Source of the DNA: Candidatus Zipacnadum vermilionense
GTDB lineage: Bacteria; Armatimonadota; Zipacnadia; Zipacnadales; Zipacnadaceae
DNA length: 34,404 nt
Direction of reading: 5' to 3'
Assembly: GCA_029821755.1 (NCBI GenBank)
Contig: JALGSV010000037.1
Coordinates: forward strand, 1-34,404
Position numbers and translations under genes: made by a program. This document shows positions 12,734 to 20,253 of the stretch, piece after piece; within the stretch, counting starts at the first letter, position 1, and each line of letters begins with the position of its first letter. Below the pieces are notes generated by a model. It was not told the origin of the DNA. It did no database searches and worked only from the letters and a program-made list of their open reading frames with translations.

Positions 12734-13390
12734 ATGACCACCAACAGTAGGGGCAGACGTCTCCCGGTGACCCTTACTCAAGCGGAGGCCGAGGCGCTGG
12801 TGGCACGGGTGAACCCCCGATCCACGACAGGGCTGCGCAACCGGGCCCTACTCGCCGTCATGCTGGGCGCGGGCCTGCGGGTGTCGGAGGTCGCCGCCCT
12901 CAAGCCGGCGGACCTGGATCTGGCCCGGGGCACCGTGCGAGTCAACCTCGGTAAGAGCGGCAAGGACCGGATCATCCCCGTCGACGGTGAGACGAGGGGA
13001 TGGCTGCAGGCGTGGGCGGAGAAGCGCACGGCCTTGGGGCTCAGCGGCCGCCAGCCGTTCTTCACCCGCCTCAAGGGCGGCACGGGGACCGGCCTGTCGG
13101 TGCGCGCTATCCAGGATTGGCTCGCCCGTCTCGGGGAGAGCGCTGGGCTGGACAAGCGCATCAGTCCCCACGTCCTGCGCCACACCTACGCCACGCGGAT
13201 GCTCGACCAGGGCCTGACCCTGCGCGACGTGCAGGAGTTACTTGGTCACGCGCATGTCGCCACCACGGAAATCTACACTCATGTCAGCGACGAGGCCCTG
13301 AGAGCCAAGATCCAGGCTCCCCGGGCCGACCTGGCCGCGAAGATTGACGCCTTGGAGAAGCAATTGGCGGAGCTGAGGGCGCAGCTCTAG
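12734..13390 (+). CDS. Tyrosine recombinase consisting of the catalytic domain only
   Basis: A 218-residue protein with all catalytic residues of the XerC/D-like family: Arg49 (GAGLRVSEV), Lys in GKSGKDR (74-77), His146-x-x-Arg149 (HVLRHTYATR), His172 (LLGHAHVATT) and Tyr181 (EIYTHV). The N-terminal SAM-like core-binding domain (about 100 residues) is missing. The ribosome site and promoter directly before the ATG show that this short form is the real product. A coiled-coil tail (KIDALEKQLAELRAQL) may give multimers. It could act with a partner protein that supplies DNA binding. It converges on the PC4-like gene, the two TAG stops sharing CTAG. Confidence 0.9.
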   Translation: MTTNSRGRRLPVTLTQAEAEALVARVNPRSTTGLRNRALLAVMLGAGLRVSEVAALKPADLDLARGTVRVNLGKSGKDRIIPVDGETRGWLQAWAEKRTALGLSGRQPFFTRLKGGTGTGLSVRAIQDWLARLGESAGLDKRISPHVLRHTYATRMLDQGLTLRDVQELLGHAHVATTEIYTHVSDEALRAKIQAPRADLAAKIDALEKQLAELRAQL

Positions 13391-14142: not shown

Positions 14143-16032
14143 CTACATAGGGAGCACCCGGCGGTAGGGAATCTCCCTCCCCTGCCGTTCCCCTGTCACT
14201 AGCAGTCCCTTCCGCACCAGGGCGCGAAGCTCTCGGTGCACCAGGGCCTTGTCCTTGCCAAGGGCGTCGGCGACCTCCTTACAGGATGCGGAACCGCCCG
14301 CCGCGTCTATCGCTTCCAGCACCTTCGCCTGGAGGCTGTCTACGCGGATCCCATCCGCTCCCTGAGCAAGCTGCCAAGTCAGGGTGACGGGGTCCCGCTT
14401 GATCGAGACCTCGAACTGGTCGATGTCGCGTCCCTCCAGGCAGAGGGTCCAGCCTCGACCTCCTCCCGTCTGCTCAAGGACCATGAAGCCGTCCGCCACG
14501 CCCGCTATCGCCGTGCTGCCGAGGATCTTAGAGCCCTCGTCACCGGTCCCGATCTTCGTCGTGTGGGTCACGACCAGTATGGGGGTACCGGTCTCAAGCG
14601 CTAGGCGTTGGAGTTCCGCGAGCGCGGCGCTCATTACCGCATAGTCGTTGAAGTCCTTCCCGCCACCCAAGAAGCGCGCGAGGGTGTCGATGACAACCAG
14701 GCGGTACTGTCGCTCGCGCAGCCGCCGGGCAAGCGCCCGCATTCCGCCCTTGTCGAAAACCGGCCATGACAACTCTATCTCGCAGTTCGCGTCCGTCGGC
14801 CACCCCTGGTTGCGCATCCGCCCCTGCAGGCGCTTCTTGTTGTCCTCCAGGCAGAGGTACAGTGCCGTGCCCTTCTCGGTATTCACCCCAAAGAGAGAGC
14901 CGCCACTGCTGACCGCGCCGGCGATCTGTAGGGACAGGACGGACTTACCTCTCTTGGGTCGGCCGGCGAGTACCGTTAGGCCCTCCGGAATGACGTCCTC
15001 AACGGCCCATCTTGTCGGCTCAAACTCGGCGGTGAGGAGGTCTGCTGCCGTCCAGGAGGTTCGCTGTGCTAGCCGCGCTGACGCTGCTTCCCCCGTCGAT
15101 CCCTGCAAGGCGCCAATGGCGGGGGACGGGGGCTGCCACTCGTGGGCGCTTGCTAGCAGACCTTGCATGTCCTCCGCGGTTCCGCCCCCCGCAAAGAAGT
15201 CCGCCGCGTCACCCTTCGGCCGCGGGTCCTCCCAAGCTATCCCCCGCGCTGGAATTCCCATGCCCGCGAGTCGCGCGCCGATCTCGTTCATGTGATCGGC
15301 GCCCTCGGGGTCTGCGTCGGGCCAGAGCGCCACGCGGTACGGTCGCAGGAACTCAAGTGCCGCGTGGCCGGGAATAGGGTTGCCAGCGCCTGTCACGGTC
15401 CCCACGGCCAGGAACCCATGCTCGGCCAAGGCGTCGCAGGCCTTCTCGCCCTCAACCACGATCACAAGCTGGCCGGGCGGGGCTTCGAGAAGGTCCGGGA
15501 GACGGTAGAAGGACAGGTCCGCCGTCTTCAGGCCGTGCAAGCCCGGCTTGCCGTCACGCCACCACTCAAACCGCTTGCCCGCCTGGCTCTCTTCGTTCAC
15601 GAACTCAATCCGAACGTGCTCCGCGACAGGGCTCCCCTCAGCGTCAAAGATGGGATACACCTGGCGCCCAGTCTCCCGCTCCCGGTCCTTCTTGCCCCGC
15701 TCGCCGCCGCTATCGTTCACGCCGACGCCCAGCATCCGGCCGAGGTCCTCCACGACCTCGGCAGTCAGGTTCTCCAGTTTGTTGCGCCTGAGGTAGAAAT
15801 CAATGATCGTCCCGTTGGCCTTACACCCGAAACACTTGAACCGTCCCGCGTATTGGCCTTCAATGGCGATCTTGAAGCTGGGGGTTGAGTCCGAATGGAA
15901 AGGGCAGAGGCCGACGAGGTGGTTGCCTTCCCGCTGGAGAAGGCCAGCGAAACCGGCGCGCGTGAAGGCGTGTTGGGGATCCGCTTGCGCAGCGGTCTTG
16001 ATCTGTTGGATTGACGATGGCTTCTGACGCAC
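14143..16032 (-). CDS. Primase-helicase fusion (CHC2 zinc finger, Toprim, RepA/AAA_25 ATPase)
   Basis: A 629-residue replication protein. A CHC2 zinc finger has Cys43, His46, Cys67 and Cys70 (LCPFHSDSTPSF, FKCFGCKANG). A Toprim domain has the catalytic Glu195 (VVEGEKACDAL) and DxD (WPDADPEG, 239-241). A RecA-type ATPase has Walker A GRPKRGKS (357-364), Walker B LVVIDT (445-450) and ILVVTHTTK. A winged-helix end (about 565-629) includes CKEVADALGKDKALVHREL. Such fusions prime and unwind plasmid, phage or integrative-element DNA. The start is a GTG with GAGGAG 5 bp upstream, 17 bp after the recombinase gene, so the two are likely co-translated. The 18-bp repeats lie directly after its stop. No key residue appears lost. 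Confidence 0.92.
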   Translation of the reverse strand: MRQKPSSIQQIKTAAQADPQHAFTRAGFAGLLQREGNHLVGLCPFHSDSTPSFKIAIEGQYAGRFKCFGCKANGTIIDFYLRRNKLENLTAEVVEDLGRMLGVGVNDSGGERGKKDRERETGRQVYPIFDAEGSPVAEHVRIEFVNEESQAGKRFEWWRDGKPGLHGLKTADLSFYRLPDLLEAPPGQLVIVVEGEKACDALAEHGFLAVGTVTGAGNPIPGHAALEFLRPYRVALWPDADPEGADHMNEIGARLAGMGIPARGIAWEDPRPKGDAADFFAGGGTAEDMQGLLASAHEWQPPSPAIGALQGSTGEAASARLAQRTSWTAADLLTAEFEPTRWAVEDVIPEGLTVLAGRPKRGKSVLSLQIAGAVSSGGSLFGVNTEKGTALYLCLEDNKKRLQGRMRNQGWPTDANCEIELSWPVFDKGGMRALARRLRERQYRLVVIDTLARFLGGGKDFNDYAVMSAALAELQRLALETGTPILVVTHTTKIGTGDEGSKILGSTAIAGVADGFMVLEQTGGGRGWTLCLEGRDIDQFEVSIKRDPVTLTWQLAQGADGIRVDSLQAKVLEAIDAAGGSASCKEVADALGKDKALVHRELRALVRKGLLVTGERQGREIPYRRVLPM

Positions 16033-16049: not shown

Positions 16050-17132
16050 CTACTCCATGCTGAGGGCCTGCCCCGTGGATGCCTCCGGAGCGGCCGTACT
16101 AAGGTCAAGCTCCTCGAGCTGACCCGTCTCCTGCTGTGTCGCCCAGGGTAGCTTCTCGACCGCAGCGTTCTTCGTGGTGGTGTCCGAATGGAGGCAAATG
16201 CTTGTAGTACTTATGTTCGAGTGGCCTAGGAGGTGAGAGACGGTGGCGACGTCTACCCCGGCCAAGACGAGTTGGGTCGCGAAGGCGTGCCTCAAGCTGT
16301 GGGGCGTAAGTCCCAGACCCTCCAGCCCCGCGCGCGCTAACAGTCGCCTGAAGAGCCTGTAGAAGCCGTTGGTGCACAGACGCCCGCCCTCCCTGCCTGT
16401 CACCAGGGGCCCGGCGTGTGGTTGTCGGTCTTGGAGGCAAGCCTTGACCGTGGCTTGGGCCGCACGACACAGGGGTACGACTCGCTCCCGGCGCCCCTTG
16501 CCCATCACGCGGACTTGCTCGTATCCGGCGCTGAGATCCCCGACGTTCAAACCAAGGACCTCCGCGCGGCGCAGTCCGGCCATGAGCATCAGCGTGAGAA
16601 TGAGTCGCTCGCGGTCGTTGCGGCAGGCCGCCAGAAGGGCGCCGCATTGTTCTAGGCTCGGGACCTTCGGGAAGACGACTCGGCGTTTGGGGAGTTCCAG
16701 GCCAGCCACCGGGTTCCGCGTGATGATCCCCAGGTCGAGGAGGTACCGAAACCAGCCTCTTAGGGCGTATGCCCGCCTTCGGATCGAGGCAGGCGCGAGG
16801 TGGGCGAGTTGTCCTGCATACCGGTGTACGTGCTGGGGTAGGACTTGCTCGACGCAAGCAACGCCCTCCTCTTCGAGAAACCGGATGAGCAGAAGGGCAT
16901 CTTGCTCGTAGGCCTTGACCGTTCTCGGAGAGCAGTCGCGGTAGTCGGCAAGGTGCGTCAGGTACTGCCGGAGGGCTGAGTGCAGTGCGGTTCCCGTCGA
17001 ACAGGCCCTTGGAAGTGCTCCGTCGCCTCCGGCAGGAGACGGCGGGACAGGCGCCCTCTGGAGTTCGCTGGGCGCTCCCTCTTCGATTGGGACCGTCACC
17101 GCAGCGGGAGTGTCGGAAGTCGATACGCTCAT
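16050..17132 (-). CDS. Tyrosine recombinase with the catalytic Tyr replaced by Cys
   Basis: A 360-residue XerC/D-like protein. The core-binding domain lies at about residues 48-140 (SALRQYLTHLADYRDCSPRT) and the catalytic domain follows, with Arg188 (AGLRRAEV), Lys212 (GKGRRER), His278-x-x-Arg281 (HSLRHAFATQ) and His304 (LLGHSNIS). Where the family has IYxH the sequence is STTSICLHSD. Codon 313 is TGC (16194-16196), one base from TAC, and no Tyr lies nearby. Strand cleavage by the usual route is therefore not expected; DNA binding could remain. The start at 17132 is chosen for AGAGGTG before ATG; the frame is open to a GTG at 17228. The gene lies upstream of the primase-helicase in the same operon. 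Confidence 0.88.
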   Translation of the reverse strand: MSVSTSDTPAAVTVPIEEGAPSELQRAPVPPSPAGGDGALPRACSTGTALHSALRQYLTHLADYRDCSPRTVKAYEQDALLLIRFLEEEGVACVEQVLPQHVHRYAGQLAHLAPASIRRRAYALRGWFRYLLDLGIITRNPVAGLELPKRRVVFPKVPSLEQCGALLAACRNDRERLILTLMLMAGLRRAEVLGLNVGDLSAGYEQVRVMGKGRRERVVPLCRAAQATVKACLQDRQPHAGPLVTGREGGRLCTNGFYRLFRRLLARAGLEGLGLTPHSLRHAFATQLVLAGVDVATVSHLLGHSNISTTSICLHSDTTTKNAAVEKLPWATQQETGQLEELDLSTAAPEASTGQALSME

Positions 17133-17182
17133 GGGTGCACCTCTTGACGTACCTACGGCCCAGGAGCGGGCCGGGTAGCACA

Positions 17183-17269
17183 AAGCCGGAACCGAGGGCG
17201 CCAGTCGCCCGGATGGTTCCGGCTTCACTTACTCGGACCCCAAGGGGGTCCTTCCGCTAACGCGGAAGG
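17183..17269. repeat. Three hairpins upstream of the recombinase gene
   Basis: AAGCCGGAACC (17183-17193) pairs with GGTTCCGGCTT (17215-17225), with GGGCG/CGCCC nested inside. GGACCCC/GGGGTCC (17235-17251) has a 3-nt loop, and CCTTCCGC-TAAC-GCGGAAGG spans 17250-17269. They fill the gap between the short ORF and the recombinase start. No T run follows, so they may be operators, leader structures or recombination sites rather than terminators. Confidence 0.55.
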
Positions 17270-17543: not shown

Positions 17544-18569
17544 CTACTTCTCCTTGTGCTGCCGGGGCGTTTGTCCCGCGTCCCCATGCTGTTGACCGCC
17601 TTGGCTGCCACGTCGGGCGCGGTAACGGTGCTGCTTGTGCGCGTTTGCGCACTTCGGGCTGCAGTGATCTTGGCGCGAGTTCTCTTTCTTGAACAGCTTC
17701 TGGCATTTCGGATGGGCACACCGAGTGTAGGTGTCGCTGCGGTCTACAGCAGCTGCAAGCTGATCCCATGCCCAGGTTACTGAGTTGGGAAGGCAATCCA
17801 GCATTATCTTGGTCACCCGGAAGGTCTCGAAGCCCACAGCGCCAAGCAAGACTACTAGCCGTCGCTGGCTGTGACTGGTGTTGCCAGCAAACCAGTCGAC
17901 GCTCTTCAGCGCGCTCCTCGCTTCCTGTACGACGGGGGCACCATTCTGGCTTTCTGACAGAGCTGCTGACAGATCGGACCTTGACGCCTCCAGTAGCAGC
18001 GCGTCAAACACTCGCCGAAGGGCGGCTTGGTTGTGGCGCATGAGCTGCATCGCGGTCTCCGGCGTCAAGGGCATCCAGTAGTACATTGCACCGTCTTGGT
18101 CGTGCAGTGCTACTTCCAGGGGCCGGCGATCTTCAGGAGCCTTCTGGAATCCTGGTTCCACGGAGGACTCCCACACATCCCTGTTGAAAGCCCTCACCAG
18201 GTCCGTCGATGCAGGGTCCACCGGCCTGAATGGAGCGTGAGGTTCGACGTACAGCGCGGCCCGACCACGCACGCTCCAGGTCAAAGGCCAGTTGCAGAAG
18301 AGGAGGAAGTCGTCGTCCACGAATCCTTGCAGTCCAGCGGGCAGCCCCCGACGAACGAATTCCGCGACCGCGGGGAGGTTTGCTGGACTTAGGTCAAGCT
18401 CGTAGAAGTCAAGAAGAAACGTCGGCCACCCGCCTGCAACGCGGGGGGAGCCTGATTCGCGGTAGAAGGCTGCCAGCACGTCGTCGTCGCCCGTGTCAAC
18501 GAGGTCTCCGACGGGAGGCGGATACGGTCCATCCCACTGCGGAAGTAACTTATCGGCTTGGTTACTCAT
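17544..18569 (-). CDS. CGNR-like zinc-finger protein
   Basis: A 341-residue protein. The C-terminal finger has Cys284, Cys289, Cys303 and Cys307 in RCAHPKCQKLFKKENSRQDH then CSPKCANAHKQHRYRARR. This is the CGNR-type pattern (C-x4-C...yC-s-x-x-C-a-x-x-x-x-x-R-y-R-x-R) found at the end of bacterial transcription regulators. The front (1-280) has no recognised fold; it is acidic and Trp/Leu-rich. A DNA-binding role is likely. The gene has its own promoter, which puts the transcription start only 2-4 nt before the ATG. Inverted repeats around that promoter suggest self-regulation. It lies between the two longer recombinase genes. Confidence 0.65.
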   Translation of the reverse strand: MSNQADKLLPQWDGPYPPPVGDLVDTGDDDVLAAFYRESGSPRVAGGWPTFLLDFYELDLSPANLPAVAEFVRRGLPAGLQGFVDDDFLLFCNWPLTWSVRGRAALYVEPHAPFRPVDPASTDLVRAFNRDVWESSVEPGFQKAPEDRRPLEVALHDQDGAMYYWMPLTPETAMQLMRHNQAALRRVFDALLLEASRSDLSAALSESQNGAPVVQEARSALKSVDWFAGNTSHSQRRLVVLLGAVGFETFRVTKIMLDCLPNSVTWAWDQLAAAVDRSDTYTRCAHPKCQKLFKKENSRQDHCSPKCANAHKQHRYRARRGSQGGQQHGDAGQTPRQHKEK

Positions 18570-18669: not shown

Positions 18670-19584
18670 TTACCCCCCTGCCGCCGACGGGAAGTTCAGC
18701 AGCGGATGGCTTGCCACGGCATTTCGCAGCTCGGTTCCGCTGACGCTCAGATAGATCGCCGTGGTGTCCAGACGGCTGTGCCCTAGGAGCTTCTGGATTT
18801 CCAGGAGGCTTGCGCTCCCGCTCTGCAGCAGCAGCGTGGCCATGCTGTGCCGCAGCATGTGCAGGTGGGCCTTGTCCGCCTCGATGCCGCTGGCCGCCAG
18901 GATGCCTCGCCAGATGCGCTGCATCCCCGAGGGGTAGATGCGGTTGCCGTGGAAGGTAGTGAACAGGTAGTCGTGCGCGCACGCCGGACGAAACTCCAGC
19001 CAGTCGGCCACAGCGTCCACCACCTCATCCACCAGGGGGATCGCTCGGTACTTGCTCCCCTTCCCCTTGACCACCACGGGCTTGTCTTTCAGGCACACGT
19101 CGGTAAGGTGCAGACCGATCAGTTCGCCCCGGCGCATGCCGGTGAAGATCAGCATGGACATCATCGCGTAGTTGCGCAGGGCACAGCGAGCGGTGCGGTT
19201 CTGCTGGGCGCCGTCGAGGATCTGTTGGAGCACGTCCTTGTTAAGGTACCGGGGTATCCCACGCTGCTGACGAGGAACCGAGACGGGGCTGACCGGATCG
19301 CCCTGGGCGACGCCGATCTTCTGCAGGTACGACCAGAAGCTGCGCAGGGCGTACAGGTGGCGAGCGACGGTGTTGTTGACAAGGCCGCGGTGGTGCATGG
19401 AGATCACCCATTCGCGGACTAGGGTCGTGGTCACCTCGGAGGGCTCAGGGGAGACGCCCTGCTCGACGAGGAACTGGGAGAGTTAGTGGAGATCGTGGCG
19501 GTAGGAGCGGGCGGTGAGGGGGCTACAGCCGAGTTCGGCCTCCAGGTAAACCGCAAAATCCCGGACAAGTAGGTCTAGAAGCAT
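18670..19584 (-). pseudogene. Tyrosine recombinase with a nonsense codon in its N-terminal domain
   Basis: From ATG 19584 the frame would give 304 residues, the usual XerC/D length. It begins MLLDLLVRDFAVYLEAELGC, then SPLTARSYRHDLH, and codon 34 is TAA (19483-19485). The same frame continues LSQFLVEQGVSPEPSEV and then the whole catalytic domain: GMRRGEL (Arg), VKGKGSKYR (Lys), HMLRHSMAT (His, Arg), LLGHSRLDTT (His) and AIYLSV (Tyr). A restart at ATG 19434 would give 254 residues lacking half the core-binding domain. It is the gene nearest to rnpB, the place expected for an integrase next to its att site. Either it is dead, it restarts, or the stop is a sequencing error. Confidence 0.85.
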
Positions 19585-19591
19585 GGGGTTT

Positions 19592-19614
19592 AGCACACAC
19601 CTTTCTTGTGTGCT
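19592..19614 (-). repeat. Hairpin in the leader of the rnpB-proximal recombinase gene
   Basis: AGCACACA (19592-19599) and TGTGTGCT (19607-19614) form a perfect 8-bp stem. On the minus strand the loop is AGAAAGG, the only Shine-Dalgarno-like run before the ATG at 19584, so the hairpin could control translation or be an operator. Confidence 0.5.
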
Positions 19615-19662: not shown

Positions 19663-19710
19663 GGAAAGTGGGTACATAAGCCTAGTAATGGAGCTTATGT
19701 TACCCACTTT
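19663..19710. other. Inverted repeat matching the rnpB 3' end, candidate attachment site
   Basis: AAAGTGGGTACATAAGC (19665-19681) and GCTTATGTTACCCACTTT (19693-19710) are inverted copies with one bulged base and an 11-bp centre. The left arm with flanks (19663-19682) matches the terminal 20 bases of rnpB (19748-19767) at 17 positions, in the same sense. The two lie 85 bp apart. Two inverted arms around a short centre is the layout of a tyrosine-recombinase core site. No T run follows, so it is a poor terminator for rnpB. Confidence 0.65.
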
Positions 19711-19746
19711 AGGGAAAACCGCATGAAATTCACCGAAAATAGGCCT

Positions 19747-20253
19747 CGGAGAGTGGGTCTATAAGCCGAATTCTGTACCCGGGGGTGCCGGGTGGCAGCC
19801 ATTTCTCTGGGGGTGCCGCTGGGCTTCCCACTTGCGGCCAACCCGGAAGTCAGGGGGCGGGCCACCCCTGCCCCCTCGCTCCCTGACCCCTCCCGCCTCC
19901 CGCTGGCTTCAGCATCAAGCCGCCTGCTCAGCGTGAGTGCGGTCAGGGAGCGAGAGGGCGCTTCCCTATTAGGCCTTGCTCCGAGCGGGGTTTGGCCGGC
20001 CGTCGCGTCTCCGCGACGCCGGTGAGCTCTTACCTCACCATTTCACCCTTACCGGGACCCGTGGGCCGCAGCTACGCCCTTTTGAGACGCGCCGCCTGCC
20101 CCGGGCTTGCGGCTCTACGCCGCCCCCGGCGGTATGTTTCTGTTCCACTGGCCGTCGGGTTGCCCCGCCTGGCATTTCGCCAGCGCTCTGCCCTGCGGAG
20201 TTCGGACTTTCCTCACCGGCTAGCGCCGGTGCGGCTGCCCGACCCACTCTCCG
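19747..20253 (-). ncRNA. rnpB: RNase P RNA, bacterial type A
   Basis: The catalytic RNA of ribonuclease P, which matures tRNA 5' ends. The minus strand shows the universal blocks: GAGGAAAGTCCGAACTCC near the 5' end (P4 strand and P5), GGTAAGGGTGAAATGGTGAG then GTAAGAGCTCACC in the specificity domain, and ACAGAATTCGGCTTATAG near the 3' end. Helix P1 closes the molecule: CGGAGAGTGGGT (5') with ACCCACTCTCCG (3'), 12 perfect pairs. About 507 nt is long for type A; the extra length is G+C-rich and lies in the variable part at about 19790-19960. A promoter lies just upstream. The element described above abuts the 3' end. Confidence 0.97.

Follow-up and report, generated by a model that had tools for sequence, protein, structure and literature searches.

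A probable integrative element at the 3′ end of the RNase P RNA gene of Candidatus Zipacnadum vermilionense (Armatimonadota)

In Candidatus Zipacnadum vermilionense the gene of RNase P RNA, rnpB, is followed, about 160 bp past its 3′ end, by the start of a tyrosine recombinase gene, int1. The window considered here (the whole stretch of DNA analysed, 34,404 nucleotides) is the entire contig C28 of the assembly. The features that matter for what follows are these:

19746 to 20250, minus strand: rnpB, class A RNase P RNA gene (Rfam RF00010, 213 bits), the predicted integration target, with a host-specified 5′ part
19771 to 19780, minus strand: left arm of the core site, GGGTACAGAA, inside rnpB, read from the sequence; other arms (...ACATAA) occupy this place at ectopic copies
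19765 to 19770, minus strand: 6-bp spacer of the core site, TTCGGC, the presumed strand-exchange region
19748 to 19764, minus strand: right arm of the core site, TTATAGACCCACTCTCC, 3′ strand of rnpB helix P1 and putative int-proximal end of the element
19693 to 19710, plus strand: accessory inverted repeat, arm on the rnpB-distal strand, aligned across elements
19663 to 19682, minus strand: rnpB-3′-end-like copy, one arm of the accessory inverted repeat, a probable accessory integrase-binding site (predicted)
19592 to 19614, minus strand: leader hairpin AGCACACA-AGAAAGG-TGTGTGCT, with the Shine-Dalgarno sequence as part of its loop, 7 nt upstream of the int start codon
18670 to 19584, minus strand: int1, XerC-like tyrosine recombinase with one in-frame TAA at 19483-19485 (PF00589, 1.3e-35; TIGR02224, 187 bits, below cut-off)
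17544 to 18569, minus strand: CGNR zinc-finger protein (PF11706), putative element cargo or regulator
16050 to 17228, minus strand: int2, the putative element's second tyrosine recombinase (PF00589 and PF02899; INT2 group in the tree)
14143 to 16032, minus strand: primase-helicase-like protein (CHC2 zinc finger and AAA_25, from domain searches)

The rnpB gene of the window has a length of 505 nt. Long rnpB genes are typical of the order, from which rnpB genes and integrases were collected in 41 genomes, and in one of these (G035:C96:519-1331) the gene is seen as two Rfam matches some 320 bp apart. The catalytic R-K-H-R-H-Y set is present in int1 (invariant R151/R152, K175, H242, R245, H269 and Y278). 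Its in-frame TAA is codon 34, and the window copy is probably either a pseudogene or the source of a shortened product starting at GTG 19434; intact relatives exist. A second rnpB-adjacent integrase also carries a single in-frame stop (G024:C5:326003) and, given single stops in two such genes, resident elements may be decaying. Hairpins similar to that of the int1 leader are found in most of 32 elements, with stems that differ from one to the next (GCACACA, GTGCACA, GACAACGC, GTGCCATGACT and others), and translational control of the integrase is a possible role. In the tree, the int2 group joins the rnpB integrases of family f38 (Hebobacteria) and not int1 (99/93). A third, short Phage_integrase open reading frame lies on the opposite strand (12734-13390, plus), and the GC skew changes sign near 15-16 kb of the window, from where genes mostly diverge. 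None of 10 window proteins matched a structural PHROG, the island being incomplete in the contig; viral relatives of the integrase are at most 36% identical, and a search of plasmids gave no match.

The last 20 bases of rnpB (19748-19767) recur at 19663-19682 with 17 of 20 positions identical, as the first-pass annotation had noticed. Within three mismatches this is the one other place for them in the window (0 expected from 100 dinucleotide shuffles), and the sequence of the copy, sought across the organism's whole genome with up to three mismatches, occurs at these two places only. The inverted repeat reported together with the copy is also real: AAAGTGGGTACATAAGC (19665-19681) differs from the reverse complement of 19693-19710, AAAGTGGGTAACATAAGC, by a single extra A, and an ungapped repeat finder returned the same pair as 21 nt with 81% identity. 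Both stand upstream of the XerC-like integrase gene. Among 29 rnpB genes compared over their available downstream DNA (up to 250 bp), the strongest downstream copy is that of the window, a score reached in 0 of 200 shuffles; G003 and G036 have 16/20, and rnpB genes with no adjoining related integrase score 10-14, approximately the shuffle level. When the int-proximal arms of 14 elements are aligned, a conserved ATAA half-site appears near the position of the window inverted repeat, and several arms hold, at about the same place, a palindrome of the kind ACATAAC-N-TTATnnTACYCAC. A sister element, G007:C348, has a counterpart of the repeat at the same distance from the int start codon. Two explanations of the 85-bp spacing had been offered, a scar of repeated integrations or a composite site, and these alignments favour the latter: since the repeat keeps its place in G007:C348 and several other elements of the clade have accessory palindromes comparable to it, it would be an inherited pair of accessory half-sites inside the element arm, presumably bound by the integrase. 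The absence of a third copy at the far end was likewise confirmed; because the contig stops inside the island, at window position 1, the far end of this element is not visible.

The end of rnpB is a palindromic core, GGGTACAGAA-TTCGGC-TTATAGACCC, as read from the sequence, and we take the recombination site to be the rnpB end itself. At rnpB, this core falls in the conserved segment CAGAA-YYCGGC-TTAYNG together with helix P1, with arms of about 10 bp around a YYCGGC spacer. To the left of the spacer, CAGAA is found at rnpB; elsewhere a different arm takes its place, usually ending in ACATAA or similar. Since the left side thus differs between rnpB and other places while the right half is kept, the junction would fall within a dif-like palindrome, at its 6-bp spacer. 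The motif preceding integrases reads YYCGGC-TTAY-...-CACTYTCC, with variants. Of 26 displayed loci with an integrase, 25 have the rnpB 3′ end (spacer plus right half) ahead of the integrase in direct orientation, be it at rnpB or elsewhere, the sole inverted case being G030:C127. The real duplicated gene end would be this whole unit. Separately, at G018:C32:84772 a copy of the rnpB 3′ end points away from the adjoining integrase.

That the target would be RNase P RNA, with an attachment site at the rnpB 3′ end for an integrase-bearing element, had been suggested from the window; comparison between genomes bears this out. By record name, the closest relatives of the integrase belong to Candidatus Zipacnadia and candidate division WS1. 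Several genomes of different families have the start of a related integrase gene (34-59% identical) 165-235 bp beyond rnpB and in the same orientation, while other genes of the window share no place around rnpB between genomes. These integrases form one clade (support 98/97). Many of its members lie away from rnpB, and genomes hold from zero to several copies. A scan of the order for the site, allowing at most three mismatches, gave many ectopic copies and 0 matches with reversed-pattern controls. A scan of 291 genomes of the phylum placed multiple copies (at least two) only in this order, family f38 and G047; wherever else a match occurred, it was single. One f38 genome (G249) is a Candidatus Hebobacteria metagenome-assembled genome, and several of its copies also precede integrases. 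In G047, where no integrase of the clade was found, the rnpB 3′ end is doubled 526 bp apart (G047:C48:40205 and 40731) around a small putative HicB antitoxin gene. In family f2, a more diverged integrase lies about 100 bp after rnpB and has a different right half (G025:C323:12428). The first-pass annotation had further suggested a search of phages and plasmids; its 20-mer and the core right half had no exact match in IMG/VR.

All 31 ectopic copies tested, from 16 genomes, have the same spacer as the rnpB of their own host (1/20000 in a permutation at genome level), a figure to be read with only three spacer types present in the tested hosts and with same-family hosts not being independent. Host-family labels on the integrase tree need at least 12 changes. 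Because integrase lineages cross host families in this way, the spacer follows the host rather than the integrase, as would be expected if strands were exchanged at the host site. The same correspondence extends to helix P1: in the 23 ectopic copies for which the host 5′ strand is known, 11-12 of 12 pairs form with that strand. As cases in point, f5 hosts have GTGTGTC on the 5′ strand of P1 and their elements carry halves of the GACAC type, and a second covarying position is seen in G017 (GGGCC/GGCCC) and in f38. G006 departs from this: its own rnpB contains a P1 mismatch that comes from the resident right half. An f5-type spacer plus P1 copy was also met in an f6 genome (G031:C838:647), possibly through contamination or recent transfer.

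Both ends were resolved for elements of 11-73 kb bounded by core sites in G003 and G006, some of them in tandem. In G006, elements of 10.9 and 72.8 kb follow each other on contig C11 and one of 16.8 kb lies on C56; in G003, an element of 55.4 kb sits at rnpB. The latter is similar to the 72.8-kb element of G006 over the initial 1.1 kb (88%), a backbone of 8.2 kb (91%) and the terminal 185 bp (85%), and the two are, by this resemblance, the same element, found once at rnpB and once away from it. Far ends share a half-site layout when aligned. The cargo includes defence genes, SIR2-HerA in the 10.9-kb element of G006 (342 and 518 bits) and a Lamassu-like system in the G003 element, recognized through an LmuB-like SMC protein (207 bits). 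In the organism's own genome, a far-end-like arm on contig C57 (at 9270) runs into a further rnpB-like start whose spacer is TTCGGC; C28 and C57 show no direct overlap, and C57 starts with a candidate CRISPR repeat, GTTTCAATCCACGCCCCCGCGG. Two contigs of G028 have an overlap of exactly 127 bases at the core, the pattern that a fork in the assembly graph would leave, and this is suggestive of excision or integration; the genomes are metagenome-assembled, and some joins could be assembly artefacts. A circular-contig test of G028:C798 was negative.

We propose that the locus is, in all likelihood, the int-proximal end of an integrative element located at the 3′ end of rnpB, where the gene end is rebuilt by the element and an accessory repeat lies in its arm. 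A tyrosine recombinase of the int1 clade would recombine the dif-like core at the rnpB end, with int1 as the putative catalyst of integration in the window. The host 5′ part of rnpB would thereby be joined to the element's own spacer and 3′ strand of P1, so that the ribozyme gene would be rebuilt, not broken, and rnpB would presumably stay functional. The right half displaced in this way would come to lie at the element's far end, where ACATAA/TTATG half-sites form a set that ends in ...TAA. Further elements could insert at the same core, creating tandem arrays, and elements also occur at other ATAA-ended sites. Some 75-85 bp into the arm, the inverted repeat would serve the recombinase as an accessory binding site. 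Such elements may be mobile at present.

Other explanations have to be balanced against this one. An inverted repeat placed just past rnpB on the transcribed strand might be a processing or termination signal of that gene, the integrase being a chance neighbour, and the first-pass annotation had named what would speak for it, a repeat conserved after rnpB where no element is present. The repeat is absent from element-free rnpB loci, clear instances of which come only from classes outside Zipacnadia, with flanks that are not shared; no terminator is called at the repeat and comparable palindromes lie upstream of integrases far from rnpB, which leaves a mere signal scarcely credible. The 85-bp copy could instead be the scar of a second integration, a remnant of the start of an older element, and it does resemble real rnpB ends in relatives (the rnpB of G007 has TTATGTACCCACTCTCC). 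This is unlikely, though the best of the alternatives, for the copy has no YYCGGC spacer and, as seen above, its counterpart in G007:C348 stands at the same distance and the palindromes of other elements at similar positions.

The dif-like core and the XerC/D-like enzyme also invite the idea of a chromosome dimer resolution recombinase with its dif site at rnpB. Yet the int1 clade is separate from the Xer-like recombinases of the same order in the tree, the number of integrase copies differs between genomes, reaching several in some, the cargo differs too, and there are multiple core sites per genome, all of which makes this role extremely improbable. Finally, far ends that are palindromic, together with several sites in one genome, would fit a cassette platform of the integron kind in which rnpB acted as attI. 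By contrast, the resolved units are large and each has its own integrase, and the integron-integrase profile scores 60 bits on int1 against a cut-off of 265; the far-end repeat occurs only 3 times in G006 and once in G003, without a cassette array, counts too few for either the integron or a VCR-like array, and both ideas were dropped, the platform being very unlikely. An integrative element that restores the end of rnpB accounts for the locus far better.

Integration that restores a gene end is known from tRNA genes. As in the integrative elements of tRNA and tmRNA genes, the 3′ end of an RNA gene is targeted here and restored by the element, int adjoins the site and accretion is in tandem; unlike them, rnpB is the target, the donated part is one strand of a long-range helix, which must match the host 5′ strand, and the core resembles dif, with 6 bp between its arms. 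The recombinase family is related to that of the XerC/XerD-dif and XerH-type systems, which share the palindromic core with its 6-bp spacer, whereas the present enzymes make a separate clade and their sites are multi-copy, borne on large elements and directed to an RNA gene. With integrons (IntI/attI/attC) there are in common a tyrosine recombinase and several palindromic sites, but no IntI family match at cut-off and no cassette array, and the elements carry their own integrase. SGI1-type islands are described as site-specific and able to stack in tandem at one site (PMC2297512). Stacking at a single site is shared with the elements described here, which differ by target gene, by integrase family and by arrays that mix element lineages. 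The literature searched, with most subscription journals outside its scope, gave no report of an attachment site in rnpB or RNase P RNA. Systematic mapping of islands may list rnpB attachment sites. As a target rnpB appears to be new, while gene-end-restoring integration at RNA genes is of a known kind.

The host group is the little-known class Zipacnadia/WS1 of the Armatimonadota, and rnpB is the single gene for the RNase P ribozyme. A broader view, which we hold tentatively and at slightly less than even chances, is that at least two classes of Armatimonadota have in rnpB a general platform for integration, where competing elements would repeatedly swap the 3′ strand of P1, ribozyme structure and element host range would co-evolve, and defence genes would accumulate in tandem behind rnpB. 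With the locus read as proposed, the RNase P RNA gene joins the RNA genes used as integration sites. Because an element would donate one strand of a ribozyme helix, its compatibility with a host could be read from base pairing, and the rnpB 3′ end followed by int would provide a simple marker with which to find, in an uncultured class, large islands that carry defence genes.
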